Part shown: piece after piece, positions 7,677 to 63,312 of the stretch | Numbering within the stretch: position 1 is the first letter of the stretch | Layout: each line of letters starts with the position of its first letter | Assembly (NCBI RefSeq): GCF_032854445.1 | Contig: NC_088302.1 | Location: forward strand, 37,142,191-37,206,190 | Direction: 5' to 3' | Source of the DNA: Liolophura sinensis | Lineage: Eukaryota > Mollusca > Polyplacophora > Chitonida > Chitonidae | Length of the DNA: 64,000 nucleotides | The notes under the pieces: generated by a model | The model's input: only the letters and a program-made list of their open reading frames with translations | What the model was told of the DNA's origin: nothing | Database searches by the model: none | Position numbers and translations under genes: made by a program

Positions 7677-7680
7677 TTAG

Positions 7681-17365: not shown

Positions 17366-17647
17366 AGGGGCCTCTGTGGCTTAGTCGGTTAGCGCGCTAG
17401 CGCGGCGTAATGACCCAGGAGCCTCTCACCAATGCGTTTGCTGTGAGTTCAAGTCCAGCTCATGCTGGCTTCCTCTCCGGTCCCAAGTGGGAAGGTCAGC
17501 AACCTGCGGATGGTCGTGGGTTTCTCCCGGGCTGTGCCCGGTTTCCACCCACCATAATGCTGGCCGACGTCGTATAAGTGAAATATTCTTGAGTACGGTG
17601 TAAAGCACCAATCAAATAAATAAATAAATAAATACATAAATACATCA
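17366..17647 (+). mobile_element. tRNA-derived SINE, full length
   Basis: The clearest copy in the window: the head starts GGGGCCTCTGTGGCTTAG, then the B-box GTGAGTTCAAGTCC, the body, and a tail of AAATAAATAAATAAATA type. An 11-bp duplication, ATACAGATTTG, flanks it at 17355-17365 and 17648-17658. Confidence 0.9.
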
Positions 17648-21440: not shown

Positions 21441-21907
21441 CTTAGCGCGGGTAGAAACACCGGTATATCTCATAGCAGTCCAACTTGAAATCAACAGACA
21501 GTCCCGGCGTGCGAGGCTGTCAGTAAACTCCTTGCAACCAACGTGAATTTTCCCGCCTCACTAATAAATGTCATGCTTGCAGATAAAGTTGCCTTTTGTA
21601 ACCATTGTGCATACCTGTCAGAAATATTAGGCCGAGTAGATCCCCATATCACTGGCAGACACATGTATCCCAGCCGTCGGTCGCTACTACTACACAGTTG
21701 AATGCACTCACCTCTCGCTCGTCTCCACTATTCACCGCTGAGTGGAATCCCGATACACTCTCCGAATTTCGGGACCTCGCTGGATTGTGCCGTGTATGCG
21801 GAGAACCACTGACGTCATCCTTGTCACGTGACTCATTCTGACACGAAGGTTTCCGGTACCTGGGTTTGACGTTTGGGAAAAGTTAACACCGATCTCTGCC
21901 AATTTTG
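21441..21907. promoter_or_regulatory. Probable divergent promoter, WW-like gene / SCOC
   Basis: This stretch is richer in CpG than its surroundings. A minus-strand donor (CCGCGCTAAG|GTAAGG, exon end 21441) and a plus-strand donor (CAATTTTG|GTACGT, exon end 21907) point outward at its two edges. It contains TTTTCCCGCC at 21548 (E2F-like) and the CRE/CLEAR/AP-1 cluster at 21810-21835. I infer two leader exons and a shared control region. No transcript evidence is available. Confidence 0.4.
21810..21835 (+). promoter_or_regulatory. CRE, CLEAR/E-box and AP-1 cluster
   Basis: Three perfect consensus sites lie within 26 bp: TGACGTCA (CRE, 21810-21817), GTCACGTGAC (the CLEAR palindrome bound by TFEB/MiT and USF factors, 21823-21832) and TGACTCA (AP-1, 21829-21835, overlapping the E-box). 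The motifs are seen directly; occupancy and target gene are inferred. Confidence 0.6.
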
Positions 21908-31821: not shown

Positions 31822-32070
31822 TTTTATTTATTTGATTGGTGTTTTGTGCTGTACTGAAGAATATTTCACTTGTACAGCAGCGGCCAGTATTATGGTGGGA
31901 GAAAACCAGGCAGAGCTGGGGGAAACCCACAACCATTGGCAGGTTTCAAACCTTCCCATGTAAGGCTGGAGAGGAAGCCAGCATGAGCTACCCTTGAAAT
32001 AAAGGCAACCGCAGTGGTGAGAGGCTCCTGGGCCATTGCGCTGCGCTGCCGCATTAACCACTTCTCCCAC
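31822..32070 (-). mobile_element. tRNA-derived SINE, minus strand
   Basis: Tail GTTTTATTTATTTGATTGGT on the left, body with CCAGTATTATGGTGGGAGAA, and a degraded tRNA-like head at 31980-32060. Confidence 0.8.
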
Positions 32071-38844: not shown

Positions 38845-39096
38845 CATTTATTTATTTGAGTGGTGTTTTACGCTGTACTAAAGAATATTTCACTTATACG
38901 ACAGCGAACAGCATTATGGTGGAAGGAAACCGGGCAGTGCCCCGGGGAAACCCACGACCATCAGCAGGTTGCTGCAGACCTTCCCACTTACAACCGGATA
39001 GGAAGCCAGAATGAGCTGGACTTGAACCCACAACAACCGCATTGGTGTGAGGCTCCTGAGTCATTACGCTGCGCTAGCGGACTAACCAACTGAGCC
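38845..39096 (-). mobile_element. tRNA-derived SINE, full length, minus strand
   Basis: All parts are present in reverse order, ending in the head complement ACTAACCAACTGAGCC. A perfect 13-bp duplication, ATAACTCATCATT, flanks it at 38832-38844 and 39097-39109. Confidence 0.92.
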
Positions 39097-39334
39097 ATAA
39101 CTCATCATTGCTGCTTTTATATTACACAGTTGGATTCACTGATCTTTTTTTTTTTTTTTTAGAATTTTCCATTTAATGCACTGGAAGATACACCTTTAAA
39201 CAGATGTATACAATGTGACCATTCAACAAAACACCAAGGCTTCAAGTCTAAACAAGAAAGATTAGTACAGATACCTAAGATTTTTTTTAGCCAGTGTTTC
39301 AACTAGACAGTATAAACTCACAGGCTATGTGAGA

Positions 39335-39703: not shown

Positions 39704-39745
39704 TCAATAGCCTTTCCTTCCTCTAAACCGTGTTCTCATATCCAG
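39704..39745 (-). CDS. COA5: COA5 coding exon 3
   Basis: Follows CCTCAG and encodes LDMRTRFRGRKGY then TGA. Easily missed because it is only 42 bp. Confidence 0.9.
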   Translation of the reverse strand: MDMRTRFRGRKGY

Positions 39746-41908
39746 CTGAGGAAACAGAGACACAAAGTTAGCATTATTAGAGAATACTGATGGCTTATTT
39801 GCTTTGGGTTTAAGGTTGTTTCAGTATTGCTCTGTTTATGTCAAAAGGGTGTCTCCAATGCTGTCATATCTGTAGTGCTGCCTCACTAGAACACAATGCT
39901 GAAGACACCAGACACCCACCTGTTGACATTTATTTATTTGATTGGTGTTTTATGCTGTACTTGAAAATATTTCACTTTATACATAACAGTGACCAGAGTT
40001 ATGGTGGGAGGAAACCGGGCAGAACTTGGAGAAAACCAACGAACATCTGTACATTGGTAGCAGACCTTCCTGCATCCAGCATGAGCTCAAGACTGCACTG
40101 GTGAGGGGCTCTTGAGTTGGCACTCTACCCACCTCGGCCACGGAAGTATACAGGCACTGGATGAACCAGAGCTTGCGTATAACTATACCTTGTTTATTAC
40201 AATAAAACAAAAATAGCCTCCATAATATAAGCTGATGTCTCATACACACTATCTGCTGGATACTTTTCAAGTAAATTTCAGGTGAAAAACAATCAAAACA
40301 GCAACAGATTGAAAAGTATGTGCTTCAAATGCACAATTTCACAGTGGATTCAATATCAATTCACCTAAGGTGATGGCATTTTCATTATAAATGTACATGT
40401 AGATGGGTGCTATCCATTAAATTGTGTATATGAAATCACATTTATCTATTGTAATAAAAATGGAACAAGGTTAACTTCAAATAAATGTATGATGTGTGTT
40501 ATGCTTGACTACCTCACTAAAAAGTTTTTCAACAATTCACCTATACAAAGCTCACTATAAATGACACCTGGCTCATTACTGCTTGCAATTATGCGTATTC
40601 ACTTCATATTTTTTATGCTTCTCTGTTTGGCAAATCTGGGTGTATGTAATAAAATGCTGTTGTGACAGTTTAGTGGTTGGTCTTTATGATTAAAGACATT
40701 GCATAACAACACATTTAATCAAGCTAAATGTATGGACTAAATGCAAGGGAATTTACTGCAATCTAATATTGACAATCATATCAATTACAGAAAGCTAACT
40801 TTTGTAAAGAAACTCAGTTGCCCGAAAGCATGCGTTTGTAAGATTAAAGGGAGACAATTTCATCTGTTTTCACAGGTTACCTCCCATCCTTGATAGTTTT
40901 CTGAAAGTACCATTCTCTATGACAGATCGGAAGCTAGAGACCAAACGGCATGGGTGAAGAAAACAGTTCTCCCAACGTTATTGCATAGGAAAATGCCTAT
41001 TTTCGAATCCCTGTCAGTGATCTTGCATCTGCTGGATTTGTATAATTTTCTTCATTCAAGAATCAATAATTACATTTTCCAAATGAATCTGTACTCACCA
41101 ATGACCGTTTACACTCATAAAATGCCCTTCTCAGGCTGTAGCACTCTTCTGGGATATTTGGGTCATTTTTCAACATCAAACATTCCTTTGGTGTTTTACC
41201 ATGCTGGGGTGGAAAATTGAAACAAGACAGAAAATTACAAAATAATAACATGATTTTAATGTTTATATAATATAGATATTTTGCTCTAATCACGAGTAAG
41301 CACAATTATCATGAAGAATATAATTTAAGGCCAGGTGAAAAGAGATACAAATCCATTTCAATTTTTAATCTGCAATGAAATTAAATTTGGTATTTACCTC
41401 CTTTTTAGGAGTGCAGGTATATGAGGGTAGGTGTAAAAAAGTTAACTATCACAAAGTTGGGAGAGCAAATGCAACTTAAATATAAGAATTCAGTTTTTTA
41501 AAAGTCTTGGCATGAATGGCACTTATCTAATTTTACACCTGAACTCTCCACTTGCTGAGTTCATGTATTTATTTTTAGGGAATAATAGAGTTAAAGTGGT
41601 ATTAAAATTAGAAAAATTGTAAAAAAAATTAAATGCCTTTAACATCAAGATACATCAACATCATCACCAGTTAAGAACAATTCCAAGAAATTTTTACCTG
41701 TATTATCATCATCACATTAAGGTTAATTAACTTTGTGTACAAACTACGTAACTCTTAAAATATCTTTGATCTGAGGTGCCATAAGAATACATACCACTCT
41801 AACACAGTCACTCTTTAATAAGCATTCTTTCAGGTCGTCCCTTAGACCAGAACAAGCCACTTTAGGCTTCTTGTCCACATCTTCTTTATCTTCATAATAT
41901 TTCGGCAT
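39704..41908 (-). CDS. COA5: Cytochrome c oxidase assembly factor 5 (PET191 homologue), three exons
   Basis: COA5/PET191 is a small twin CX9C protein of the mitochondrial intermembrane space, needed for assembly of respiratory complex IV (family knowledge). Minus-strand exons 41908-41795, 41203-41099 and 39745-39704 join in phase 0 with GT..AG borders, giving 86 residues (human 74). The N-terminus MPKYYEDK is the family signature. Cysteines at 19 and 29, and at 59 and 69, form the two CX9C pairs; further cysteines are at 35 and 46. The C-terminal TRFRGRKGY is also diagnostic. No signal peptide, as expected for MIA40-dependent import. The exon holding the ATG begins three bases upstream after TTTCAG, so the 5' UTR must be split; a donor TTTTG|GTAGGT at 44089/44088 is a candidate. 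It is divergent from UNC50. Confidence 0.95.
39928..40146 (-). mobile_element. tRNA-derived SINE, shortened, in COA5 intron 2
   Basis: Tail CATTTATTTATTTGATTGGT, body with AGTTATGGTGGGAGGAAACC; part of the body and head are deleted. Confidence 0.8.
41099..41203 (-). CDS. COA5: COA5 coding exon 2
   Basis: Follows TTTCCACCCCAG, ends TCATTG|GTGAGT, 35 codons. It holds the second CX9C pair within PEECYSLRRAFYECKRSL. Confidence 0.93.
41795..41908 (-). CDS. COA5: COA5 coding exon 1
   Basis: ATG through AGAGTG|GTATGT, 38 codons, with the first CX9C pair in ACSGLRDDLKECLLKSDC. Confidence 0.93.
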
Positions 41909-41911
41909 TGT

Positions 41912-44088
41912 CTGAAACATTTGTATGTATCCATATTCATATCAAAATAAGAAAGAATAAAGACAATAAACACAGCTTTGAAGGAACAATGGATGACCCA
42001 GCTGAAAAAGTACTGATTTCTTCATGTAGAATATTCTTTGAGCCAAAATATGCTTTAGTGTGACATTTCAAGCTTTAAATCTAGAATGTTCTTCCTACAA
42101 GTACATGATTACCCTTACAAATGACATTTGCAGAAGATGTTTGTGAAACAGTATATGAAATTGGTATATATACATGTATGAGCTTGAGTTTTGTCAACAT
42201 CAAGAATCATAGACTCAAAGTAACTCAGTACTTCATTTGCAAGCAGGTGGAGTAAGAAATACATTTAATATTGGATGATCACTGATGCTTTCAAACATGG
42301 CTCAAAATAGTTCATAAGCTCTATATTTTGGACCTATGACGTGAGGCTCTGGAAATCAGGAGCGACATGCCAACCTCATAAAAATTTTGAGGAAATCTCA
42401 CAAGACAGAGGACGTTTAAGTAATTAAAAATAAGAACTGCACTGCTTTGTAGTAACCTTTTATTATATCAATTATCCAGTTGTTTCTGTTGACAACTCTG
42501 TTTAAATGCACCTAGAATTACAAGAGCTAAGGGTGATATCTGGACATTTTCGAAGTCTTGCAATCCCCATACACTTTACCAGGTTTTAGACTATCAGGAC
42601 AGACTGTATTACTTACATGTACATGTAGTATGTACAGCTTAGTAAAGCTTCCTCGAGCCCATCCTGATGTCTGATATACAAGGATTCCCACAGCTATCTG
42701 TTTTACAGAATTTCTGATTCAAACAAGTTTACCAACATCTATCATAAATGTTTCTAATTTGAATTTTGGCAAAGTAGGAGATGGATATTTGAAATACCAC
42801 AATTAAAAATGATATCCTAATACCCAAGTATTATTATCCTGATACCAACATATTTAAAGGCGAAGACCCCCAAAAAGTAAATAAAGCAAAGAGAAAAAGT
42901 TCCTATGGAAGAAATCTTCCAGGCTCATACCTGCATGGGCCTACATGTATTGTAATTTAAACTGCCAAATTATAAAAAAAAAAAAAAGACAGTGAAAGCT
43001 CATGAACTGTTTTGAATTAAAAATTTCAACTGATGAATATTACTCTTGATACAACATGGTTTACTCTTGCAGAAAATGAGATTTCTACAAACGGTTGACT
43101 TGAGGAAAAGTAAGACGGGCTGAAGTTGTAAATGTAATTGAAATATTCTTGCTGGATAATACAAGGACCTGTTCGAGGCTCCATGAGTCCAGCTCCATGT
43201 TGGACTATCAGAGCTAATTTAAAGTAAAAGAAAGCTAAAGTATGAAATAAGGTTCATCATTTTCCTGATGTTCACCAGAAGGAAGGAATTTTTGAGAATA
43301 TTAATTCACTGATTATCCACTCGTGGGTAAAAAGATCTATTCCAAAATTCAGTGATGTGATTAGAGTTGGAAAAACTTTCTGTGACCTCAGAGTTCCGAT
43401 TGTATGGTCCATAAAGCCCATCTAATAATTCAAATGTTTGAAGGCCTTTAACTTTATTCACAAAAATTTAAAAAAATAAATGAAAGTGTATAGTTTTAAG
43501 TGGTCTATTAAGTGATGCCTACTTCTATTTTTAGATGTCTTTTTCTTTAAATGTCTGAAATGGTGAAATTATACATTCTAAAGATACTTTCCACAGGTGT
43601 AACATTGGGCACCACTGCTGAAGTAGTTATTGAACTAACATATATAGCATGTACACACTTAGTTCAGTATATAACCACGAGAAGCTAGTTAAACTGGGGA
43701 GAACTAGGATCAAATCCTCGTACCAAACTAGTTGCTGCCTCCCTCTAGTGGATGTGTCACTCGAATCAGAGTTACACGTTTGCAATTATTGGTGCTCAAC
43801 ACGGAGAGGATAACAGTCTATTCTTCTCTCAAACGCTCTCAGCCGAACAAAATATTGCCAAACCTAACGTCAAAGCAATCTCGAAATACATCAGTGTCTG
43901 CAAACTTTAAGGCGTGGATACGTAGGCCTACATATTTGATGTTAATTTTTATCTCAAACGCCATGAAAAACCGCCAAGGCAACCGAATCAGTTTTTAAAT
44001 TGCGCCCTGACGTTGGTCAGGGCGCCATCCTTGGCAAATCTAGCGTCAGAATAATTTGGGAATAGACCTAAAGCATCCATGTACCTAC
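41912..44088. other. COA5: Probable COA5 5' UTR intron
   Basis: Between the acceptor of the ATG exon and a candidate minus-strand donor. AT-rich, no repeat or exon recognised. Confidence 0.35.
44002..44025. repeat. Perfect 10-bp inverted repeat
   Basis: GCGCCCTGAC, loop GTTG, GTCAGGGCGC. A GC-rich hairpin close to the COA5/UNC50 control region. Function unknown. Confidence 0.8.
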
Positions 44089-44229
44089 CAAAAGCTAGCA
44101 AAGTAGTTTTGCAGACACCAGTTTTCGACACCACGGGCTATATACCTTTTTCTTGTAAAAAAAAAAATATGAATTACACTATTTGTCCAATTGTTAGCTA
44201 CTAACTAGACACGTAAAGTTGACAACTCT

Positions 44230-44420
44230 TTCACTACACGATGAGAGATAAATATTGATAAGCTAACGACACTTTACAGTTCCGGCACCTGTCAACTGGG
44301 CGCAGCCATTTTGAGAACTGTCAAGTTAGCACATGCGCGGTTTATCATCTTCACTGTTCCGGTGGCCAAGCTGGACGTTTGTTGATGTTGACGAGTTCAA
44401 ACAGCGAAAGAAGCCAAGTA
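44230..44420. promoter_or_regulatory. Probable bidirectional promoter COA5/UNC50
   Basis: A CpG-containing segment between the divergent genes. It has two ETS cores (TTCCGG at 44280-44285 and 44357-44362), a YY1-like GCAGCCATTTTG at 44302-44313 and an NRF1-like CATGCGCG at 44332. These factors are typical of nuclear genes for mitochondrial proteins such as COA5. Start sites are not known. Confidence 0.5.
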
Positions 44421-45979
44421 TTTATGTGGTACGTTATCATATTTACACTTGAACTGTTCAGGAATTGGACAGCATTCACCTCTAGCCGATGGAAATCTCA
44501 TCGAATGAACTAACTTGCTGTGAACTACTGTTTGATGTTTGTACTTATTTTTGTTACACGTTGTTGTTGTTTGACAGATTGTTACCAACACTTACTTTCT
44601 AACTAACTAAAAGTGACTAACTGAAGAAATCTTATTACAATCAAACGTAATTAAGCTACAATAGCATTTCGCAATACAAGGGAACACAGGGCCGTTATCT
44701 TTCTTCTTAGGTTATTCTGCGCGAATCTGTGCAGATGTAAAATTCCTACAGTCCTAAAGTTTCTACAGTCATTTCATATCCTACCAATTTCTGTCCAATG
44801 TCTTTTGATACCCCAGAAATGTTATAAGGATTGCGTAGTTCCTGAATGGGTAAGTCTCATATCGAGCATCATAGGTGAGAGAGTTATGGTGTCAAACAAT
44901 GCCAGATGTGTCAGATTCATTAATTCACAAAACAAGCACATTTTCATATACTATCGCACTGCGACCGTAAGCTGTGTGTCCCCATTTCGATGTCGTACGG
45001 GAACTGAAGGTGGACTTAACATGCCGAGTGTGACTATCATGATTGCCATAGGGATTATCTCCCTTGAATGTGCTCATATCATGTGATTTGTACGGGGTAC
45101 TATCAAAACAATGTGGTACCCATCATGGGGCAGAGTCTGAAAATATACCTGATTGTAAATCTGTGCAGTTGTCATGGATTGTTTTTGATTTAGCAAGACT
45201 CAGAACAGGTTAGTTGATTATGGGAACGACTCGTTTTACAAAGGTGTACGCGAGGGAAGTTTTAATGCACGTTTGAAGATGCTGTAAATGTTCCTTACTA
45301 TCAATGCAACACATTTGGGGCTGTTTCCCATGGTAACTCACGCGACTATGTTGCTCGATCTGAGAGTTCAATGATTTGATTGCAGTGTCACAGTGATACT
45401 GATAGCCGATCTCCTTAAACAGTGTACCAACTTAAACAGCATGTAGTTGACTAAAATTAAACAACTAACTGTATGTTAGTGCTTACTTGAAGAAATATTA
45501 ATGTAAGTGCCCCTGAACAATGAATTGATATAGTCTATCAGTTCTACAAGACTATGGGGCCTCCGTGGCTCAGTTGGTTAGTGCACTAGCGCAGTGTAAT
45601 GACCGAGGAGTTTCTCACCAATGCGGTCGCTGTGAGTTCAAGTCCAGATCATGCTGGCTTCCTCTCAGGCCGTACGTGGGAAGGTTTGTCAGCAACCTGC
45701 GGATGGTCGTGTGTTTCCCCCGGGCTCTGTCCAGTTTCCACCCACCATAATGGTGGCCGCCGTCATATAAGTGAAATTTTCTTGAGTACGGCATAAAACA
45801 CCAAAATTTACAGTGTATGAAATGCATTCATTCAAGGGTTATGAAAAAAAACTCATCTTGACAATCAATATAAAATTATTTTGCTGAAAATGCAGACCTG
45901 TCACACGTGAAGTACATTGGCAGTTTGGATTCTGTAATTTCTCCTGAGACTCCACTATTTTTCATTTATTTTTTTCCAG
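44421..45979. other. UNC50: Probable UNC50 5' UTR exon and intron
   Basis: A strong donor, AATGG|GTAAGT (exon end 44849), could close a leader exon; the acceptor TTTTTTTCCAG at 45979 precedes the coding exon. One SINE (45556) lies in the inferred intron. Confidence 0.35.
45556..45806 (+). mobile_element. tRNA-derived SINE, plus strand
   Basis: Head GGGCCTCCGTGGCTCAGTTG with B box GTGAGTTCAAGTCC, complete body, ending GCATAAAACACCAAAA. The usual AAATAAAT tail is missing and no target duplication is clear. Confidence 0.85.
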
Positions 45980-46016
45980 ATCTGTGATCATTGTGTGACA
46001 AATTGGTTGTCACTTC

Positions 46017-46273
46017 ATGATGAGCAACTATGGCAAGGCACATGCCTCCCCTCCCCCGTCTGTCAACGGTTCTCCCCCAATGTCACCTGTACCAGGGGCA
46101 GGCCCGGAGCAGATGTGGGGGGCATCCACAGGAGATAATACACGTCTACGAGCACGGCTAACAGCTACAGCAAAGAGATCAAAGTATCTGGGCAGACTTC
46201 TAAAATTCAGACAAATGGACTTTGAATATGCATTTTGGCAGATGTTGTATTTGTTTGTCTCCCCACAAAAGGT
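46017..46273 (+). CDS. UNC50: UNC50 coding exon 1
   Basis: The exon starts at 45980 after the acceptor and ends AAAAGGT|GTAAGT in phase 2. It encodes the variable N-terminus and the first conserved block. Confidence 0.93.
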
Positions 46274-49200
46274 GTAAGTTGGAAACTTAATTTACTTGTA
46301 TGGACTTTTGCCGTCTGATTATTATACATGTATTATATTTCTGTATACTATTACAAAGATATGCACCTTTTTGAATTCATTTGCTAGTTTATTTATGAAA
46401 ACCAGACTCACTGTGCATTTTTTGTTATAAAATTGCACTAGGCCATTAAAATTTCTCCTTTACTATTGTAACTACTGTCTAGAAAAGTTGAGCACACTAT
46501 TAACACATACATGTAGCATAGTGCTCAGAAGCCAAATAAACCACTGATTGTGAAAAACACTGATTTTTAAGCAGGTACGCAGTCTGCTATCGGGAAGTTA
46601 TTTGAATACATTGAAGGCTCTAGGCATCCATTTGTTTTATTATGATTCCTATATTTGCCCACACCGCTCATCCAAAAGTGCATTTTTATGGGCAAATAAA
46701 AGTAAAAAAATAACTGTTTTAATATTGATACTTTTTTCATAGGATATCATCATGCCTTTTCAGCAATTGCAAAACGCCTTTTAAAATCAACAAAACTCTC
46801 AATATCATGCAAGATGAGTGAACTTATGGATAAAATTGCAATATTTTCAGTTATGTCAGATATTATGGTTTCTGACGTATACATATTTTTGTTCTTTGTA
46901 CAAAAGACATGATGTACAGTACACTGAATGTTTGTATCAGCTAAATATGGACTCACCAGAATCATGTTTTTTTCAGGTACCGAAACTTTCAGTACAGAAA
47001 ACGTGAGTGACATTTTCCATATTTAGGAAGTGTGGAGTACAATAAGGATTGTAGAAGTGATAATTTATACCTTACTTCATAACTTCGCAGCTGTAAAATT
47101 TAGATACATGTATAAAGAAATATAAATCAATTACAACCTAAAGCAAGTTATTTTGTTTGAACTTTTGCAATGAATAATGTTTGTTTTTCATTAATACTGA
47201 CACACGTGAGATACAGGTTCAATCCTGGCCTTGGACAAGAAAATTTGTGCTTTCCCAAACTCTCACTGTCTGTGGGACCTTGGCACAATTTGTGTGCATA
47301 TCTTTACATCACATGTTCTTCAGTGTTTTGCCAAAGGTCGTTGGTTTACTCAGAGTACAGCCTGTCTTTTCAATTTATGAATTCTGCCAGTCTAACTGTT
47401 TATGGGGCCTTGGTGACAGTATTTGTGTGGCTCTTTGTTCAGTCAAAGAATTCGTTAAAGAAAATGAGTTTTCCACCATTATTGTGTGTAAACATCTGTG
47501 TATGACAGTGTCTGTATGTCATGATTGGAGAAATTGACTTTTAACTTGCCAGTGGCGGAATGTTACCCTGGACATGTGTTTTTCCTGCACTCAATAAAAT
47601 TTGACTACCATCTTATAGGAAAAGAAAATTCTTAATGCAAAGTCAACAAATAGACATAAACTGCCTGAGTGTTTTTTTCTGATGTGCTATGTAATTCTAT
47701 AAATCAGCTTCTCAACTGGAATTCTTTTGAGGCCCTGGGGTTTGCCATGTTACACTAGTGACTGGAAACACAGTGTCATGTCACTCAAACCTCACGCTTA
47801 TGTGGCTAAATGGCAGAACAGTGTTTGTTTGACTTCAGCAGAATCTGAAGCCATCACGGGTTATGGAAAGAACTCGTGCCTGATGGTTGAAATTGATAGC
47901 ATGACACGGCTTTTCATTTTCTCAGTGTGCACAATTTTGCGTATTGGAACGCCTATGTCTTGGGTGTGCAACATCAAAAAAATACAAAAGTATGTATTTT
48001 AAACTTTATGTTGGATACTTTATGTTTAATTCTAATTTTGTCTTTTATTTTAAGTATTACATTATATAAATGTATCTATGAAAAAGGGTGAAATAAATAA
48101 TGACCAAAATATTGTGAATGTCACTTTGGATTATTTTCCATTAACAGAGACCAAGGACCAATGGGCTAGAGACGACCCAGCCTTCCTGGTCTTGCTTAGT
48201 TTTTGGCTGTTTGGTATGTTCTTCATGTTACCACTGTAACTTTAACCTCCAGTGTTCTGGTATGTTTTGTAAACTGGTCTTGGAATAAGCGTACTACCAT
48301 GTTTAAGTGTATTATTGTTCTCTCAAGTAGAAAGTGTATAGAAAACTTGCAGTGGACACTTTGCCTAATTGTTGTATGTTATCGAAAAGGAATTGATTTA
48401 TATATACTGAAGACGATTTTACAATTACCAGAAAGTTTCACAGCTTTAAATTGTTGCAATAATTGGTATGTTGTATAATTTGTATAATGATGTACTGATT
48501 TTACAGTGTAACACCAAAGTACAAGTAGTGGAATTTTTGCACTTCTTTTTCCAGTATATCATGAAAGTTGAATTAATTTGTGGTACAGGTACTGATATCT
48601 GTAATTTCTGTTTTTCAGTTTCCTCCATTGGATTTTCACTCTCGCTACATTTGGGGATTACTGGTTTCATCAAATTTTTTCTTTGGGTAGTATTTGTGGA
48701 CTGCATTGGTGTAGGCATATTGATAGCCTCCTTATTTTGGTGAGTGAAACAGCCAACTTTTAATTCGTCATTTAAAGTGGCATATGATACATTTACAGTT
48801 GTATGTATGCTTTCTGTTGCATTCTTTCACAATGATGAATAATTATATAGTTTTCTTTGCCTTAAAAGAACAGACTCAGAGAATTCATTCCTGGCTTTTT
48901 CCAAATATGAATATTCCATTATTTTTTTTAGAAACAAAATAATGTCATAACACATTATTTTTGATGTTGATACTTACATTATTCCAGTGGGATATCATCC
49001 TGTGTTCTAAACAAATCTTAAATAAATGCTTCAAAATGAGTAGAATTCTCAACATCAGGAAAAATAGTCAATTAGCTGATGAAAGAGATTTTATTTTATT
49101 TATTTGCAAATATAGCTATTAGAGCATATTTAGGAGCTAAAATGAGTTTCTGACAACATTGTGCTTCATCTGGTTCAATATTAGCTGAAAAGTCCACTGT

Positions 49201-51166
49201 ATATAACCTCACTGTTTAGTAGCATTTTGTTCAAAGGACAAAGGTTTTTCTTTTATCTGATCTGTTATCTTAATTTGTTATGATTTTTTCCTCCACTATT
49301 CATCAGGACTATATTAACTGTATTTGACCTAAGATTTCATCCAGATCTAAGTCACTCCTTTTGCCTGATTTTACGAGTTCTATTGATATTAAAAAGGGTG
49401 TGAGGAATTTTTTGTCACAGGAAGGTAGAATATTATCATTCTGGTCAAACGTACATTTCAACCCCAAAACCATTACTTTATGACTTATATTTGCCTGTAA
49501 AATGCACTTTTGCGGTGAAGTTTTATGTCAGTGTGAGTTTATGTGTTTACATTCCTTCATCTTATGTTTCAGGTTAATCATGAACCGCTACATGATCACC
49601 ATGCCACGGAGGGGACAGGATGTAGAGTGGGGATATGCCTTTGATGTTCATCTCAACGCTTTCTTTCCTCTGCTCATGATTTTGCACCTTTTCCAACTTG
49701 TATTTTACTATGGTATGACTTGTAAAATTATCCCTGAGCTGACAAGACTTTGAAGCTCTTTTGTCATGCTCATAAGCTATGTATGTCTTTACATTTATTT
49801 GAAGATAGGACCACATCAGTGGCATAATGGTTAGAGTGTCTGCCTTGAAGTCGAGAGACCCTGAAATCAAATTGGAATCGGTTTGGTATTACCCAGGTTG
49901 GGTCATACCACAGACTAGGTTCTTGCTGCTGCCTCATTCGGCATTCAGCACTGAGAGGGTATCTGCCAGGCTTTACCTGGTTTCCTCTCACCATAATGCT
50001 GACTGACATATTACATTGAAATATTCTTGAGTACCCTGTTTCTTCTAAAATTTGGGACACCTGATCTGCTCATCCTAGCCAATATATATGTAATTCTAAC
50101 AGGAATATTGAGTTTCTTTTTTATCACATGGTTAGACCATCTAATGAAGAACATACTCTTACCTTTACTTTTCCAAAATGCAGGTAAAGAAAGGTAATAT
50201 TCCACTTTCAACACTATTAAGATCTGTCTCGGATTTTAGAAGAATTAGGATATGGCGTAAAACACCAAAGAAATAATTGAATAAATAAATAAATATTGGA
50301 CAAACTGCCTGGTTGAGAAATTGTGCTACAAGTTGCCCTTTGGTATTTGTTTCAGCATTAATAGACAATGACCGCTTTGTGGGGTGCTTGGTGGGGAACA
50401 CGTGCTGGCTTATTGCACTGACTTACTACATATACATCACATTCTTGGGCTATAGTGGTGAGTTATTAAAAAATTTTGGAACCTCTTTGTGAAAGTAGTT
50501 TTACTCTTGAAGTTTAACTGCAGTCATTTTTGTAATCATATGTGTGTGTTTTGTGTGTGTTTGATAACTTATAAAATGTTAATATTGTTTCACGATTTAA
50601 GGTGCTTGCATTTCAGTCTCCTGGACACATTCTTTTAAGAGGTTTTCCAACATGGTTGACTACAGTGAATTAAACCAATTAAATCATCATTCATCATGAC
50701 ACGCATGTAGATAACTTTTGATTGGTCAATTTAATGGAAAAAAATCAAATCATAAAATAAAAATTACCAGTGTATATTGTTTTGGGTATTGGATTAGAAT
50801 TGTGTCAAGCATGCTCAAATAATAAGAGCAATGTTCCATCTGATAATGTGGTAGTTTAGTACAGAAGTGTTTTTTGCCTTCTTATAAGTGCACTATTGCC
50901 CAAGTGGCATCAAGCCATAGTCTTGTCCTTGGATATGTATGACTAGACCAGAATCCTTACTGACTTTGTAAAAGTTATAAATACATTTATTTTTAAGCTG
51001 ATATTTGTTACGTTTTTTTTTTATTTCAGCCCTGCCATTTCTGAAGAACACACGGTCTATATTGTTTGCGATCACAGGTATTATTTTAGTATACCTGCTA
51101 TCTCTCATTTTCAAGTGGAATTTCACCAGGGGTCTCTGTTCATTTTATACCAAACGAGTTATGTAG
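46017..51166 (+). CDS. UNC50: UNC-50 family Golgi membrane protein (seven coding exons)
   Basis: UNC50/GMH1 proteins are multipass Golgi membrane proteins. They act in ARF-GEF recruitment and, in nematodes, in assembly and surface delivery of nicotinic receptors (family knowledge). Seven exons join in frame with GT..AG borders: 46017-46273, 46977-47002, 48148-48213, 48619-48739, 49573-49712, 50356-50457 and 51030-51166. The product is 282 residues (human 259). Residues 1-50 are a Pro/Ser/Gly-rich tail that accounts for the extra length. Then come FRQMDFEYAFWQMLYLF, QTKDQWARDDPAF, and DVEWGYAFDVHLNAFFPL, all family signatures, with about five hydrophobic membrane spans. The end is KWNFTRGLCSFYTKRVM. 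The first of two adjacent ATGs was taken as start. It is head-to-head with COA5. Confidence 0.96.
46977..47002 (+). CDS. UNC50: UNC50 coding exon 2 (26-bp microexon)
   Basis: Between TTTTTTTCAG and GTGAGT. It encodes YRNFQYRK and split codons on both sides. The peptide and both phases match the family exactly, so it is real despite its size. Confidence 0.9.
47003..48147. other. UNC50: UNC50 intron 2
   Basis: No repeat family recognised. Overlapping open frames at 47170-47537 have no similarity to UNC50 and are intronic. Confidence 0.6.
48148..48213 (+). CDS. UNC50: UNC50 coding exon 3
   Basis: Follows TTAACAG and ends TTTG|GTATGT. It encodes TKDQWARDDPAFLVLLSFWL. Confidence 0.95.
48619..48739 (+). 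CDS. UNC50: UNC50 coding exon 4
   Basis: Follows GTTTTTCAG and ends TTTTG|GTGAGT. It encodes a membrane span with FLWVVFVDCIGVGILIASLF. Confidence 0.95.
49573..49712 (+). CDS. UNC50: UNC50 coding exon 5
   Basis: Follows TATGTTTCAG and ends TATG|GTATGA. It encodes the loop with MPRRGQDVEWGYAFDVHLNA and the next span. Confidence 0.95.
49808..50033 (+). mobile_element. SINE with a different tRNA-like head, left part, in UNC50 intron 5
   Basis: Head CAGTGGCATAATGGTTAGAG differs from the other copies. The body (TTTCCTCTCACCATAATGCT, TGAAATATTCTTGAGTA) is that of the common family. The element is interrupted at 50034 and resumes at 50251. Confidence 0.7.
50034..50250 (+). mobile_element. TA-flanked MITE nested in a SINE
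   Basis: Ends CCCTGTTTCTTCTAAAAT (left) and ATTTTAGAAGAATTAGGA (right) are inverted repeats. TA flanks both sides (50032-50033 and 50251-50252). Removing the insert restores the SINE motif TTCTTGAGTA/TGGCGTAAAACACC. A TA target duplication suggests a Tc1/mariner-type element; it is about 217 bp and non-coding. Confidence 0.7.
50251..50295 (+). mobile_element. SINE right part (continues 49808-50033)
   Basis: TATGGCGTAAAACACCAAAG and tail AATTGAATAAATAAATAAAT complete the interrupted SINE. Confidence 0.75.
50356..50457 (+). CDS. UNC50: UNC50 coding exon 6
   Basis: Follows TTTGTTTCAG and ends AGTG|GTGAGT. It encodes VGNTCWLIALTYYIYITFLG. Confidence 0.95.
50458..51029. other. UNC50: UNC50 intron 6
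   Basis: No repeat or additional exon seen. Confidence 0.6.
51030..51166 (+). CDS. UNC50: UNC50 coding exon 7
   Basis: Follows TTTATTTCAG and ends at TAG. Last membrane span and cytosolic tail (KWNFTRGLCSFYTKRVM). Confidence 0.95.
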
Positions 51167-53705: not shown

Positions 53706-54484
53706 TTACATGATGGGTCAGTTTGCCAGCAAGAACAATGTTTAATGTAGTCGACTGAGTCAGCAAGTGCCCTTAGCTTATTTGCAGTGTGTAACTTAAA
53801 CTAACTTTGCCGCAACTACTCTCATCATTCCCAGCTTTTCAAACACTTTCCTCAAATCTCACAACCTTTTTATACATCAAAGTTTTTTTCAATACGACTT
53901 TTAACAGCAAAACTGTATGGACTAAATACTATGTTCAAAAAGTTTTGAGCTTTTCAGATAGTTCAGAATCAAACTTCTACTGTGTCAGGATATACACAAT
54001 AAAATGTAGCTCGAACTCCCTGGAATGATATGTCACAGTGTCCTCTTTAGGATCTACCCGCGAGTATGAGAGTCGCCTAGCGACAGAACAGCGACCTTGC
54101 AAGAGTACAGGAAACAATTACCAACATGAAATGCGATCTTTCTGCTGCCCTTAGGCCCGTGCCAGATATGTCTCCTTTCAGCGAAATGATTTTCAATCCG
54201 TTCGCTGATAACAAGCTTCTTAATTCTGCAATTCACCACTGATATTATTGGAGTTGAATTCCTGATGGCAGTGTCAATGACATTAATCAGAACAGCGATC
54301 TTTCTACATTATACGTTATAAGATGAGTAGGCCTTGCCCTTTACTTCGCGGCTCATGATCGACATTTTTAATTTCCAACAATATTATACGACAAATGTTT
54401 CTTCAAGAAAAATGAGCAAATGACCGAAACTTAGCACAGTCGGTAGTGCGCGAAGCCATAGCGTCTTGACATTGTCAGATAGCC

Positions 54485-54575
54485 AATATTGATTGATTCA
54501 TACATTGGTGTCTAATGCATCCTCAAGAATGTTTTACTCCTTCGACGACAGTCAGTGTCCTGGGTGAAAAAATGG
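54485..54575 (-). mobile_element. SINE remnant, minus strand
   Basis: TTGATTGATTCATACATTGG, then TGTCTAATGCATCCTCAAGAATGTTTTACTCCTTCGACGACAG, aligns to the reverse tail and body with many substitutions. Confidence 0.45.
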
Positions 54576-55617
54576 AAAGTCCGAAGTGAACCAGCGGCCT
54601 TTGTCATATGACTGACGAACTTTTCTACGAGGATTTTTACTGGTTGAAGGCAAGTGCCTGATTTCCAACGAATTGCAAAGAAGACCACCTAAACAGGTTG
54701 CTGACAGCTTATTGCCATTTGAACGTTATGGGCGGGTGGATCTCAAAAATTGTTTTGACATGCTGGGCGTGCCTGGGCGATTGAAAGATGGGCATGTTGA
54801 TATTCCCGCCACAACCGGCCCCTAAATGTTAAAACCTTTTCGGAGCTGAGTGTTTCAGAGCTTAGGCTGTGGATTAGTTTTGAAATCTGTTGATGAGAAA
54901 ACAATTGTCATAAATGATAATACACCTGGGCGTTTTGTTTTATTTTATTCACATCAAATCAAAGAGGTCCATATGGACCCAGGAATATGATCGATAACAT
55001 TAGTATAGTTAACAGATACATAACAAATACCGGTATATTTTGTTACATATAGTATATAAATAGACCAACATTACATTTGGCAATTCCACAATGTATAAAA
55101 TACAATGTCACACCATGAAGTAGATGTGTAGATATATGCAGCATGCAACCAATATCCCAATACTTCAATCCGGTAGAATAGCAATAGCGCTTCGCACTGA
55201 TGTTTGAACTTATTAACCTCCATAGATATGTTACTGCCAATATCCTGTTAGAGAACATTAAAATATCTTTGCGATCTAACGCATATACGATCCATGTCAT
55301 ACGCATATATGCTTTCGTTTTTGCCCAACAATTGTTCCAGATGCTGTCCGATTTTTTCTGTAGGGTCACGTTGTAAAACCTCAGATCACGTTTGAATACC
55401 AGCCCAATCCATGCATAAGTTTTGTATATTTAATCATTTCTATGATTCTTTTTGATGGTTTGTATCCATTGAATAATTATGTCTAACATTGTCCGTTCTT
55501 GATAAAATTGGTTCACAGTGTGCAGATTCAATTTGTTTTAAATGTTACAAGGTACGATATATACACTATACGCAGTACCCTTCGGTGTATTGTTAACAAA
55601 GTAAGGATAATTAACAA

Positions 55618-55740
55618 TGCCGAAATAGAACTCATTTCTCTTGTCGTAAAGGTAGCAGAAAGAAACGTTGTCGTCTTTGTACGAATAGTCCAAAGAAGTC
55701 TTCTACGAAATTCCAAGTAAGATTTACAGTGTTGAAGTAT
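55618..55740 (+). pseudogene. Cys-rich relic, piggyBac C-terminal finger-like
   Basis: One plus frame reads THFSCRKGSRKKRCRLCTNS, then PKKSSTKFQ. The order H-F ... K-R-C-x-x-C ... K-K-x-x-T-x-F resembles the C-terminal zinc-binding segment of piggyBac-like transposases, but the later cysteines are absent and nothing upstream matches the catalytic domain. Tentative. Confidence 0.25.
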
Positions 55741-57204
55741 GTAGTAGAAGTACTCTCTCCTCTTTCGTGTTCTACTTTATTGTCCCAGAAAGGGTGGAGT
55801 TACACAGTTCTAAATCCCCAGAATGAACAAATCGAGGCTTACAGGTTGAGAAATCGTAAATGGCTCAGTTTAGTGTTGGAACTAAATAAAGCCGACCACT
55901 TTGCAGATCGGTGTAAAGCTACCGTTTGCACTATATTTTAAAGAGTTGCCTTACTATTCAACTTGCTTATGTATATTTATTTCCATCATAGGTTTGTGAG
56001 TATAGGCCTTTGTAGATTTATACTAATGGTCATTTGGATTAAGTACCATATTTACGATTCATCTGGGAGCCATACACAGATGTATAATGGGGTTAGAAAG
56101 TCGCAGCGGCAATTTCTTTAATAGCCTGTTCAGCTCTGAAGCTATAGGTTTGGAAGTCTTAAACCGCCTGTATGAAGGAGAAGCGATGCGTCCTGCACGA
56201 ATGCAATTTGAATACCATAACGAGTGGAGACAAAAATCGGTCCATTTCCATTCACCAGGAATTCAATAGATCCGTTTTATTGGTTCCCGTGCTCTTAGAC
56301 AGCCTTCATCTCAAGCAGATGTGATTGACTTCAAAACAATCTGGGTGATGTTTTCCCAATGGAGATGGCGCTAGCCAATTACCAAAGGCGCGAGACGAGA
56401 ACATAGCAGTCTTAACTCACCGGACAAGGACCGGTGTTAGCTTTTGGTTGGGGGAAAGGGGGAGTGGGGTATAAGTTGGAAAAACCATGCCCTTCAGCTT
56501 ATAACTCATTGTGTTATCATAGCTCCTCTATAAGAAACTAATGTGTTTATTATGAGGACTGGAGTAGGGGATGTATTATTGGGCACGTCCTCCGGTCGAC
56601 CGCAACAAAATACTGAGTCAGCTGGGGTAAAGCTACAGATGCCCCGATAACCCAATTGTAAGGGGATGACACGAGTGTCCAAAGGTCCCACTGCGATCTG
56701 GAGATGGACAGATAAAACTCATCACGTTACTGGGTATATATCTGACCAAAGTTTATACTAAGCGTGTACCTCCTAATGCATATAACATGGTTAAACAGGC
56801 AATCTTTAAACACACCAGTTAGGTCATTTTAAACTTTTCGGGACGATATGCTGTCAATGTATACATGTATATGCTAACATGGTTTTACAACCTCTGTTAA
56901 AGATTAATGGAGAATTTTAACTACAACCGTCACACTTTTCAATTGTCTTGTCCAAGAATCGGGTTCCTGGAGGCAATCCTATTACCTCCGTTGTGAAGGT
57001 GACCCTGATATTTTGCATGGGCTTCTTCTTTCCCCAAATAAGCAGTTCTAGTAGGCAGAGATTCAAGCCATATATGTCAGGTAATTTTAAATGTGAATGG
57101 CATGACCCTTCATTTCGTTGGTCAGGTATTGAAGTAAAGACAACTGATTGAATGAAATGAACGTTCTGAATTGTCTCATCGCCTCATTGCCCTAGAAAGG
57201 TGCG

Positions 57205-57231: not shown

Positions 57232-60200
57232 ACCCCTAAAATTGTGCTATGCCTCACCTTGCTGTAGAAGGTTGTTTAGCTGAATTTATATTCTTCAGTT
57301 GAAAGCTAATCTACATGTACCTGCATCATTTTATCTTACCACCGAAAGCACGTGTAAAATTTCACCAAGGCGATTTCCCAAAACAGCCTAGCGATACTTC
57401 GATCTGATCCTGATGCTGGGTACAGGGGTCACAAAAGAATTTCCTGGGGTATACACCGTAAAAGCTAATGTCTGTGGGCATGGTAAACTGGTACAAAGTA
57501 ATATCGAGAAGCAGCACTTGCATTAGGTTCTCACTGATTAATTCTTTTGGGCGTAACATTGCATTCAATACGATTAACCCCATCCCATGCAGCGATTGTT
57601 GTCTTAGGCGACAATAAGCGAACGGCTGTGCTCTTTCGTGTAACCATACATGAAGTTCACTGGAGACAGTTTGCCTTTCACCATATGTCACATGTAGAAA
57701 AATTCGCCAGCAACACGTGCCAATCCATGGTTGCTGGTTCACCCCGCCTTCGCCAACACAGTTTACCGGCCCACACCATATATATGTGAAAAATCTTCGA
57801 GTATGCCGTTCAAGAAGACGATAAAAATTAATACAAAATATTTCGGTTTCCTTTTAAAATTATATATGTCCCCTAATGTCATGATATTTTTAGTGCTATC
57901 TCAGTGAAACATCATGCTGAATAAACGAGACATTATACACATGCGCAGCGCTTCCACAGTGTAATGGGATGAAGTAATGATTTGCAATTCTCCATTTCCC
58001 TATTGCTCAGTGCCAGCAGACAAGCACTGTCGTAATATATTGTAATATTTTGTAATATATTTAAAAATTATTTTAGGTTCACCCGATTTGGGATAAAACC
58101 TTAAGCGAATGATGTTTGGTATTAAGCTGACCAGCGTCTGTAAAATACCCGAAATACCCGAAATATCGTCTGAAAAAATGAAAAAAATTCTTTTTTTTTT
58201 TTTTTAAATATTTGTTTGCAGCATGAAAGAAGCTTGCACGGGTTATCGGATGTGCTGATCACGTTCCGGTGACGCCAACAATCAAAAACCTTTTTGCTTC
58301 CTTTACAGTTTTTCTACGGGACAATCATCCTATATATTGACATCAATGCTATACCTGCTGAGAGTAAAGAACACAGCTTGAGACAAAATTAAGACGTTCC
58401 TTCGTTCGTGGGACATAGCATACTATAACTGTTTCAACATGTGCGCTAGAGCTTACTGAACGTTGTCCAAAACACTGTTAAGACACACATACATGTATTT
58501 GATTGCTGCGCTGTAGATCTTACCAAAGATTTTTTATATGACGACGGTTAGGATTGGTAAGAATCTTGAGGACAGCAACAATTTTTTTTATAAATTCAGT
58601 CAAACTAAAATGATTCTAATCTGGAGCCATTATTTTCTTTTCCATGAGCGTTGTCAGGATTATGGTTCATGCTCTGTGAACTCGTGATCTGCAGTGACTA
58701 TTTATTTGATATGACCGCAGTCAGGCGTGAGGCTTATAGCTCAGGATCGTATGGTCTCCGCCGATCATATCAGCTCTCTTGGACGACTACACAGCTCACG
58801 GTTCATTGTCTAGCTGATTATATGGTTAATGGTGAAAGCTGGTCTTGAACCATACTTCCAGCTAAGACGCGTGTTACTTACAAAATAGCTTGCAAAGTAT
58901 ACAAAATTTAAAAACGTTTGGAGCCCGTTTTTTGCATTTTTGAAATGCGACAGTTGTTTGAAAAACGCTATTAATAAATAAAGACAAAGGAAACATTAAT
59001 ATGCAGTATATTTTAGATGAAAGCCAATTAAATATTACACTATCTAGGCAAGTGGTTTTATTTACGATTTTGGAAATTTGTCAACCGAGATACAAAGATT
59101 TATTTGAAACACTGGTTTTATTGGGGGTCATTTTTCTAAACATTTTGTGAGCAGTAACATCACACCAGACTGTGGCCACTTAACACAGACATATTGCTCG
59201 AAAAAGAAAAGAACTTTATAGGAAGTGTTTAAAGGTCTTCACCACTAGTATGCTCTTGGCTATAACTGTTTTTCAAAACTAATCCTTCTTTAGGAACGAT
59301 GAAACTTCGGTGGTTGAAGTGTTTCGAATATTAATTACCCACCTATTTATTATCAGCTTGGACAGGTTAATCAGAAGTAACGAAGAATATAGATACAATA
59401 TTAAGATATTGCATATAGATCTAGTTATAAAAAACAGCCCAATACATCAGTGTAGCCAAATTTAGCCAGGTGATTTACTGTCACTCTACCTATATACTTA
59501 CATGGACTTGCAATTTTAATGAAGGAACATCTGGATAATGACATATTTTACTAGAGGCAATATGGCGCCGCCTTTGTAACCGGCTCTCACCAGGAGAACG
59601 CGTCGGAAATTAAACAGATCGCACTTTTCCCGCAGGTGTGTAACTGGATGATCGTCTGGGAGTGACAATGATTGCCTTTCTCCAGTTAATTGTCCCCCTG
59701 TGTAAGATCCCTGGGGACATATGTACAGCCTGTGTTGATACTGTTTAGCGCTTTGGTGTCTCCATGAAATGGCGGGATGCCATGTAGCCCTATATCCTGC
59801 ACGAACATTCCACAGAGTTTCAAGCGGCAGGACACATGAAATACTGGTTCAGTCTCAGTTTCTGACAGGGAATATGTTCTTTTGTCAATTTACCCCGCCC
59901 CACTCGTATGGCTTTTTATGTAGTCTTAGGTGACGATTGTTGGTGATTACTTACGGCGCATATGCTGAACTCGATCTGCACATGAAAATCTGTGCGCCAC
60001 ATATTGGAAAGCTCGTAAGTTACAAACCAAAAGCCGATGGTTTACGCCGGGAACTCTGTTCTAGAAGCGATGTATTCGTCAGTATGGCATTATACATCAA
60101 TCAATCAATCAATCCGTCAAACCATACAATTATCCATCTTTGGCGTATTTTAGACATAATTTAGTCCAGAGTACCAGCTTTGCCACCACTTGCATTTTCG

Positions 60201-61705
60201 CATATTTTAATCAAAATCACTGAATAAAATAATGTTAGATACATATAGCCTACTTTAATATTGTTTATTCGATATGACATCCAAGGAACCTTTTACACGC
60301 ATTGCGAGATATGATGCGAGACACGTTAAACAGGCATAGGCCTAAGACATTAGCAACGTTCTGTTTATCGCAATCCAAGATACCCGGCACAGACCAAGGA
60401 ACGCTTTAATCCACACAGTGCTGACTCAGAAAGCTAAAGCTATACCCATTATTTCCTGGTAGAGCCACTTGTATAACCTAATCCAAAGACACACAGGGGT
60501 AGTTTACATTACATGTCACATCCCGGGTCGGTATACGGATCTACAGCCGTCTCTCCGTCAAAGATGTAATCCCGATCCCAGCTAAACCTGGACGATAGCC
60601 ATTTGTGTGTGTAGCAGGTAATTTACTGCCACTGTTGGACAACGCTCGCTTAGCCGCTTTAGAATCAAGTTTGGCTATCTCGCTTGGCACAAATTGTCCC
60701 GGTGTAATTGATTTGTAAATTGGCAAATGTCGGCCTGCTTAACTCGAGTATGTTGATCGTATACTCTTCCAAATCAGTTGGAAAAACAGTCTCGGCCAAC
60801 TGTTTAAGGATGACGCGTCGCAGAAGCACGTTAATTGGTGGAAATAAATGCAGAAGCGATGCGCAAAAATGACAATGTTTTCAATTTCCACAGGCAAACA
60901 ATTTTGTCTGGTCTGTGTAATTTCCTGATACGCCACATGCCATATAGCACATGTATAATAAATGTATAATTATAGGGGACATGGCATCAGCATTTTGATA
61001 AAGCACAAAACTTATTTATTTATTCGTTTGTTTTGTTTGATTTATAGAACACCGATTATATATAACTATACAATTATGACAAAATGTGTAAATTTACAAT
61101 ACAAAGGAACACAAAATGTTCCCTGTGCTCATCACCAGCTTCTAGGCTTTGCAACAACAGTTTTGTGCTTTATCAGATCTCTTATGTGGCTGCAAGCACA
61201 TATACACAGGGCGACATCGGGTGACACAGGCAGCGATAAGACGTAGCTCAGTTAAATAGTGTTTTATTTGATTTTGTATAAAAAATACAATTTTGTTTTA
61301 AGATAAAGTGACGACATTGCTGTGTATCCAGTCAGAATCGATAAGCGTGTTAAGTAAATTAAATATAAAGCTATACATTAATTAAGTGATGTAAAATTCA
61401 CCAACATATCGGTGAACTGAATGTAGCTTTTCTCAATAACATGCAATTTTACTAACACCATTGACAATTTTCGTCTTCGATTTAATATCACACTGAGAGA
61501 TTAGCTAAAGCTCAAGTGACACAACATAAGGAACTTTTGTATTTAGTTACTGGTGAAAATCCGCACCTTTTCCTCTCCAAATCATGATATAATTTTAAGC
61601 GTGAAAGATATTCGGATGCAAACATTTGTACATAGGTATGATACCACGTGTAGGTATAGGTATCTTATCTCATAGCACCATGGGAACGCCGCCATCCTTG
61701 CCCCG

Positions 61706-62017
61706 TCATCTCCAAAATGTTTTCCAGTAGATTATGTTAAAGATGATAAAACCCAACGGAAAGAGATATCTGGAACCCCGATCTATTTTTGACACGCTGT
61801 TGAGAGTTACCTCCCGTTTTCTCCGTTTGACTCGTGTTTTCCGCCGCAGGGACCCCATGATGGAACCCCAGATCTTCTTATACTTGCTGTCCCTCCTGTC
61901 GAAGTGGTCTTGCCCGACTGGACGGCTGTGACAGTTATTCGGCCGAGATCGCGGTGGGTAGGTGGCTCCGTTCATGCTCTTGAGAGGGGTTCGACAGTTG
62001 GGCTCTGCAGGGGTAAT
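61706..62017 (-). CDS. Receptor terminal exon (M4)
   Basis: Acceptor TTTTTAAAG|ATTACC is chosen because it keeps phase 0. The alternative CCTGCAG|AGCCC would break the frame with the donor at 63067. 103 codons plus TGA. Confidence 0.85.
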   Translation of the reverse strand: MTPAEPNCRTPLKSMNGATYPPRSRPNNCHSRPVGQDHFDRRDSKYKKIWGSIMGSLRRKTRVKRRKREVTLNSVSKIDRGSRYLFPLGFIIFNIIYWKTFWR

Positions 62018-63312
62018 CTTTAAAAAAAAAGCTAGAAAGTATTATTTTTTTAGCATTTAAATTCGATATTGAAGGCGTTAAAGACAAATGTACAAATGTT
62101 TATTACTTAACACGTTGGGTTCTCTGCCTTCAAAAAACCCTAAAAACATCAACTTCAAGAGTGGCGACATCCTTGAACTGCAAAGTAAATATATGTTAGA
62201 TCACTGCCAACAACGGACATGCAGTACGGCAAAAGAAACGTATTTACTTGTTCAACCAACAAAGGAATAAGAGGACAAGGCTTTAAGTTTAAGACGTCCA
62301 ACTCTAGTGATTCAAGCACGGAAGTAAAAAGATGAAAATGAAGTTTTTAATTTCTCTATCACTCTCTATCAGTGCGAAAACGCTCAATGACCTGTGAAAT
62401 GAAGAGCTGGACTAATAATGTCTTGCCATTTTTGGTTTTGCGCCTCCACTCTTTGATTAGACCCTCCACTAATCATCTTGGATCTTTTCACTATTTAATG
62501 TGTAAAATGGAAAGAGGAACACCACAAACCTTCTTCCACACCAGTCTACTACGAGCCTAGAAGTTCCATATTCACTGTACCAAAAAAACTGCGCAACACT
62601 CGTTACATCTGTTCAAGCTATGAACCCATGGCCCACAAACAGCATATATTGCCAGCTCCCTGACTAGGGGTACACTCAGAAATATAATTTCAACTGGACA
62701 AACATATAAGGAAAAAAGGGAAACGTGTAGATAAGCATACGTGTAGATAACAAGTGCTGGTGAGAATAGTTGCTCAGATAAACGGCCACTAGTGGCCTGG
62801 TGTAATCGAGGAATGACTTTCTGCTGCTTATTTCGTGTTTACTGTTGAGGAAAGACCTTCTGCTGCTTATTTCGTGATTACTGTCGAGGAATGACCTTCT
62901 GCTGCTTATTTCGTGATTACTGTCGAGGAATGACCTTTTGTTGCTTATACTGAAGTCCATCTTGTATGAGTTGTTCAGGAGTCATATGGTGGTCAGTGGA
63001 TTAAAACATAAACAAGATCTGACTGCAGTTGCAATAAATAAAGATGTCAGCAACGTTTATACCCTACCCCTTCTTCAGACGTATCAAATTCACTGGTATC
63101 CTCATCACTATCGCTGACGTGCATCCATGGGTAGATCTCGCCACTCCCACGCTTCGTGAAGTAATGGACTGCGGCGAACTGGAGGATAGCTGCCAAGACA
63201 AAGAGATAACACACGGCCAGGTATAGATCCAGAGCCGTGGAGTACGACACTTTGGGAAGGTCTGTCCTATTGTCCAACCCGAGGAAAGTCATCGTCAAAA
63301 CCGTGGTTACAC
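61706..63312 (-). CDS. GABA-A-receptor-like Cys-loop channel subunit, last two exons (partial)
   Basis: Subunits of this family form pentameric ligand-gated, usually chloride, channels at the cell surface. Exons 63312-63068 and 62017-61706 (minus) join in phase 0. The first starts within M2 ([10 protein letters not shown]), continues with the conserved M2-M3 link TDLPKVSY, then M3 ([20 protein letters not shown]) and HYFTKRG, which is typical of GABA-A alpha-like subunits. An acidic loop follows ([16 protein letters not shown]). The second exon gives a basic loop ([11 protein letters not shown]), then [30 protein letters not shown] and stop: M4 and the C-terminus. The position after IDR is Gly, where other subunits often have Trp or Leu. 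The ligand-binding domain and M1 lie beyond the right edge. Family is certain; the exact subunit type (alpha-like, GRD-like or other) is not. Confidence 0.9.
62018..63067. other. Receptor intron within the M3-M4 loop
   Basis: Contains a 39-bp tandem repeat (62806-62950). No further exon recognised, though an alternative loop exon cannot be excluded. Confidence 0.6.
62806..62950 (-). repeat. 39-bp tandem repeat, about four copies
   Basis: The block GAGGAATGACCTTCTGCTGC recurs at 62808, 62847, 62886 and 62925, an exact 39-bp period. As 13 codons it keeps a minus frame open ([13 protein letters not shown]). Confidence 0.88.
63068..63312 (-). CDS. Receptor exon with M2 end and M3
   Basis: Follows CTCTCTCTCAAG and ends GAAGAAGGG|GTAGGG. 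A split Gly codon at the 5' side implies the upstream exon ends in phase 1. Confidence 0.9.

Follow-up and report, generated by a model that had tools for sequence, protein, structure and literature searches.

COA5 and UNC50 lie side by side in this genome and read away from each other, and we consider it probable that they form an ancestral divergent pair whose transcription is driven from a single compact bidirectional promoter, located at ~44.28–44.40 kb of the window, the 64-kb stretch of DNA that was analysed and to which all positions refer. This explanation is built on the observed identity, order and strand of the genes, CpG enrichment between them, a cluster of promoter motifs and two amniote gene lists. 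The genes are unrelated housekeeping genes, COA5 being mitochondrial and UNC50 Golgi. If the arrangement is confirmed across phyla, it would allow one to test cleanly whether promoter sharing is by itself enough to keep functionally unrelated genes linked for more than 500 million years.

The COA5 gene, which encodes a PET191-like cytochrome c oxidase assembly factor, was identified from a spliced open reading frame (ORF) and a Pfam match and occupies positions 39704–41908 of the minus strand. Its coding sequence consists of three exons (41908–41795, 41203–41099 and 39745–39704) that specify 86 residues and end in a stop codon, and the product matches the Pfam family PF10203 Pet191_N with an E-value of 1.1e-25. 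All three exons were also aligned by a human COA5 query, with E-values of 1.5e-8, 7.6e-5 and 0.004. UNC50, recognised in the same way, spans 46017–51166 of the plus strand and comprises seven coding exons (46017–46273, 46977–47002, 48148–48213, 48619–48739, 49573–49712, 50356–50457 and 51030–51166). The exons encode 282 residues, again with a stop codon, of which residues 57–277 match PF05216 UNC-50 with an E-value of 1.9e-88. Searches of the viral_contigs and genome_contigs collections returned no relatives of UNC50, and viral_contigs contained none of COA5.

The 5′ ends of these adjacent protein-coding genes face each other from opposite strands, as in a divergent pair, and the start codons, at 41908 and 46017, are 4.1 kb apart. 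We scanned 38 of the 147 listed ORFs against Pfam, eight in the gap and 30 elsewhere. None of the eight, which are all the ORFs of at least 70 residues that lie wholly inside the gap, matched a Pfam family at E ≤ 0.1. Nor did any Rfam family reach its cut-off within the 64-kb window, and ARAGORN, run in its bacterial setting, found no tRNA in it. Thus, complete spliced ORFs, Pfam matches and the scan of the gap ORFs bear out the claim of an earlier note that COA5 and UNC50 are divergent neighbours with no gene between them. Outside the gap, two of the 30 scanned ORFs belong to the receptor gene described below; the other 28 had no Pfam match above the cut-off, with six weaker matches in five of them at E-values of 0.0016–0.068. 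Exon prediction from codon statistics was powerless here, yielding no candidates and then two, and scoring five of the seven true UNC50 exons below zero. Additional genes may be present undetected in the window flanks.

The DNA between COA5 and UNC50 is CpG-rich, as expected of a bidirectional pair. Two overlapping runs form a CpG-rich stretch at 43601–45000 with observed/expected ratios of up to 1.02, and the ratio of 0.93 at 43650–44650 corresponds to the 92nd percentile of the window, the mean of which is 0.46. Toward COA5 the ratio falls to 0.22–0.27 (41900–43600). The window contains 20 runs with a ratio above 0.8, three of them in the gap, so CpG enrichment by itself is not special. Low values at both ends of the gap mean that CpG-rich DNA near either start codon is confined to the centre of the gap and to a SINE-like copy at 45555–45805.

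Within this stretch, motif scans located four sites in 86 bp (44277–44362), which we propose as the core of a bidirectional promoter. The first is a minus-strand ETS core, CCGGAA, at 44280–44285 within TGCCGGAACTG (44277–44287), the best ETS match of the window (3.6 such matches are expected by chance per 64 kb). It is followed by a YY1-like site on the minus strand, CAAAATGGCTGCG (44301–44313), that is oriented toward COA5 and ranks fourth among the YY1 matches of the window (0.93 expected), and by an NRF1-like site, AGCACATGCGCG (44328–44339), the second-best NRF1 site of the window (0.67 expected). The best NRF1 site, at position 17393, lies within a SINE-like copy. A second CCGGAA core is found at 44357–44362, 77 bp from the first and in the same orientation. 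The pattern AARATGGCKGC occurs twice in 64 kb (0.07 expected), and one of the two occurrences is the YY1-like site. Neither TTCCGG (four in the window versus 8.7 expected, two of the four inside 44277–44362) nor CATGCGC (three versus 2.3 expected, one of them inside) is enriched in the window. It is the coincidence of sites at 44277–44362, rather than the count of any single motif, that stands out.

We scored this coincidence with motif models built from general consensus sequences, as were the splice-site models used below. The combined NRF1, ETS and YY1 score of 5.15 at 44277–44362 is the highest in the window, where the runner-up reaches 2.78, and no cluster with a score of at least 5.15 appeared in 3 Mb of simulated window-like DNA or in 1 Mb of simulated CpG-rich DNA. 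Figures obtained with ten motifs are fairer, because the three motifs had been picked in the earlier note after the sequence had been read. In this test the COA5–UNC50 locus, with 5.15, is outscored within the window by one other cluster, at 21774 (5.21), and the simulations reached 5.15 in one cluster in 3 Mb of window-like DNA and in six clusters in 1 Mb of CpG-rich DNA. Six clusters per Mb correspond to ~0.025 per 4.1 kb, so that such a cluster in one given 4-kb gap is unlikely even with ten motifs. The proposed ETS, YY1 and NRF1-like sites near 44.3 kb are present as one compact cluster beyond simulated chance, and the GABPA/ETS, NRF1 and YY1 motifs typical of bidirectional pairs are enriched here, less strikingly so when ten motifs are considered.

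The distance between the start codons may overstate the distance between the transcription starts. The UNC50 start codon lies 37 bases 3′ of a putative splice acceptor read from the sequence at 45966–45979 (plus strand) with a good score of 5.5, which implies that UNC50 likely has an intron in its 5′-UTR; the proposed intron would contain the plus-strand SINE-like copy at 45555–45805. On the other side, the COA5 start codon lies three bases 3′ of an acceptor-like AG (TTTCAG/ACAATG; putative acceptor TTTCAG at 41912–41917, minus strand). A 5′-UTR intron is likely for COA5 as well, with less certainty than for UNC50, the acceptor being weak (score −2.5). Acceptor-like AG dinucleotides 5′ of both start codons raise the possibility that the transcription starts are much closer together, nearer 44.3 kb, and the gap is probably a promoter between two introns. 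Candidate donors for the non-coding first exons are TTG/GTAGGT at 44083–44088 (minus strand, score 2.4) for COA5 and GTG/GTACGT at 44429–44434 (plus strand, score 2.3) for UNC50. Both are outscored by alternatives, at 42930 and 42616 for COA5 and at 44850, 44875, 45209, 45333 and 45503 for UNC50. These mediocre nearest donors and the weak COA5 acceptor are points against a shared promoter.

Taken as sequence, the motif cluster and the CpG-rich gap fit a single bidirectional promoter. In the mechanism that we propose, NRF1, ETS/GABP and YY1 factors would bind the 86-bp core and polymerase would be recruited in both directions, with the COA5 transcript starting at ~44.31–44.33 kb and the UNC50 transcript at ~44.36–44.40 kb. 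Each transcript would begin with a non-coding first exon that is spliced across the 5′-UTR intron to the exon carrying the start codon. A chromosomal break between COA5 and UNC50 would then strip the promoter from one of the genes, and selection would act against such breakage. A promoter common to both genes would thus allow the pair to persist without a functional tie between the products.

The mechanism is plausible, and COA5–UNC50 would be a further example of a well-known class of gene pairs. One published definition of bidirectional pairs requires the two transcription starts to be separated by less than 1 kb (PMC3403606); COA5–UNC50 is known here by its start codons, 4.1 kb apart. In amphioxus, 25% of neighbouring genes (3,950 of 15,884) are reported to lie in bidirectional promoters, with an enrichment of housekeeping genes (PMC6292497). 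COA5–UNC50 resembles the ancestral chordate bidirectional promoters of that study in its 5′-to-5′ neighbours, in the compact shared promoter proposed here, in the housekeeping bias and in the very long retention seen for some pairs; it differs in that it is found in an inferred non-vertebrate and that its starts are predicted. Many ancestral bidirectional promoters were lost in vertebrates, so a common promoter is no guarantee that a pair stays together, and of 821 human bidirectional pairs, 60 are reported to have an orthologous counterpart in each of seven further vertebrates (PMC2423431). According to a human–mouse study, the selective force is not co-regulation of the two genes, nor is it a functional connection between them (PMC3403606). 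The motifs of GABPA, NRF1 and YY1 are among those reported as over-represented in human bidirectional promoters, and insertion of a GABP site is reported to be able to make promoter activity bidirectional (PMC10887517). The core described here shares with these human promoters the same three factor classes and a CpG-rich setting, whereas its putative sites stray from the strict consensus, for example CCGGAACT compared to CCGGAAGT. The value of COA5–UNC50 is that of a testable candidate bidirectional promoter with named sites and, possibly, of a wider neighbourhood.

We take human COA5 and UNC50 to be head-to-head and, presumably, within the CNGA3 block of chromosome 2. The earlier note had proposed that the two genes are linked outside this genome, and they do stand next to each other in gene lists from cattle and chicken, which carry no strand. 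A cattle interval is given as INPP4A, COA5, UNC50 and MGAT4A (PMC10818672), and a chicken list reads CNGA3, VWA3B, COA5, UNC50 and MGAT4A (PMC10976558); both appear to be in map order, without saying so. As expected for an ancestral pair, the same two genes are thus neighbours in a distant lineage, and if the present genome is, as it appears, that of a non-vertebrate animal, the age of COA5–UNC50 as a pair would exceed 500 million years. The likeness consists in the same two genes being together. The flanking genes INPP4A or VWA3B and MGAT4A differ from the present locus, where INPP4A and MGAT4A were not found: with human queries, tblastn gave no match to INPP4A in the window and a single chance-level match to MGAT4A in its 64 kb (E 0.89), an outcome that depends on the query sequences used and on where the window ends. 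We found no description of the COA5–UNC50 arrangement in the open-licence library that was searched, and it may well appear in other places, such as the supplements of papers.

Several other explanations can be considered for these data. COA5 and UNC50 might be ancestrally adjacent and yet use separate promoters, the 44.3 kb cluster serving only one of them. We regard this as unlikely, although the 4.1 kb gap is roomy enough for two promoters and its best donors lie far from 44.3 kb. At the COA5 end, the weak acceptor would allow transcription to start near 41.9 kb without a 5′-UTR intron, but the CpG observed/expected ratio there is just 0.22 (41900–42500). CpG enrichment covers a wide stretch, weaker runs reaching 45350 on the UNC50 side, yet the ratio is down to 0.39 at 45850–46300, the DNA 5′ of UNC50 at 45555–45805 is a SINE-like copy, and no further cluster from the list of top NRF1/ETS/YY1 scores falls in the gap. 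A considerably smaller chance attaches to the idea that vertebrates and this lineage each acquired the pairing on their own, or that it is a coincidence. The comparison is limited to this genome and the cattle and chicken lists, and divergent pairs are common, accounting for the quarter of amphioxus neighbours cited above (PMC6292497) and for a reported 32% of fly genes (PMC3403606). However, we estimate that two given genes among ~20,000 would end up adjacent and divergent by chance with a probability of roughly 1e-5 to 1e-4, and ancestral pairs are known in the hundreds, with 372 in one study (PMC6292497).

We give marginally less credence still to a constraint on the wider neighbourhood, such as regulatory DNA of a nearby GABA-A receptor gene, as the reason for which the pair was kept in place of a shared promoter. 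A GABA-A receptor alpha-like gene does lie 10.5 kb past UNC50, and chicken variants beside GABRB3 and COA5 are placed ~0.7 Mb apart (PMC9823035), but the UBE3A/GABRB3 block is described as having parted from the human chromosome 2 CNGA3 block in placental mammals (PMC1626109), and cattle nevertheless list COA5 and UNC50 together. A single shared promoter remains our preferred reading of the pair.

The receptor gene itself was recognised from Pfam and structure matches as two exons at ~61706–63312 of the minus strand, convergent with UNC50 and probably continuing past position 64000. One of its ORFs matches the Pfam family Neur_chan_memb with an E-value of 1.1e-17 and the other with 1.3e-05 (26.0 bits, below the cut-off of 28.1), and the best solved-structure matches of both are GABA-A alpha-1 chains (5.4e-18 and 1.5e-07). 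The GABA-A receptor family is not known outside animals, so the genome here would be that of an animal, and probably of a non-vertebrate. The chicken variants mentioned above map to GGA1, the one beside GABRB3 at 132.889 Mb and the one beside COA5 at 133.607 Mb, and the same source notes a role of UNC50 in the cell-surface expression of nicotinic receptors (PMC9823035). Tentatively, and with the balance tilting against it, COA5, UNC50 and a GABA-A receptor gene could have formed a single neighbourhood in the bilaterian ancestor, which would measure ~24 kb here and ~0.7 Mb in chicken and would have been split in placental mammals when the human chromosome 15 and 2 blocks parted. If so, the proximity of UNC50 to a Cys-loop receptor gene would be ancient. 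Against such a neighbourhood, UNC50 is the nearer of the two genes to the receptor here, whereas in chicken it is COA5, the receptor family is large, and the likeness of the present gene to GABA-A alpha-1 chains need not mean orthology. Between UNC50 and the receptor gene the window contains CpG-rich DNA at 53851–56450 and 57451–62450, where none of the ten scanned ORFs exceeded the Pfam cut-off.

Other features were observed elsewhere in the window. The cluster at 21774–21860 is promoter-like, with an E-box palindrome GTCACGTGAC, TGACGTCA and an ETS core, and lies inside CpG-rich DNA at 21051–22500; no gene was recognised nearby among the Pfam-scanned ORFs. CpG-rich DNA is also found at 6801–8000 (observed/expected up to 1.39), where neither of the two scanned ORFs scored above the Pfam cut-off; the ORFs of this stretch may resemble a decayed Harbinger-type transposase. 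A block of internal repeats at 2132–3651 has long open frames on both strands. Finally, a SINE-like family, which presumably resembles mollusc repeats in sequence and would tentatively point to a mollusc host, gave no match in pattern scans of viral_contigs and genome_contigs and is represented in the 64 kb by seven near-full copies (8356–8604, 10014–10256, 17367–17611, 27100–27347, 31836–32060, 38861–39097 and 45555–45805) and ten shorter or weaker pieces.
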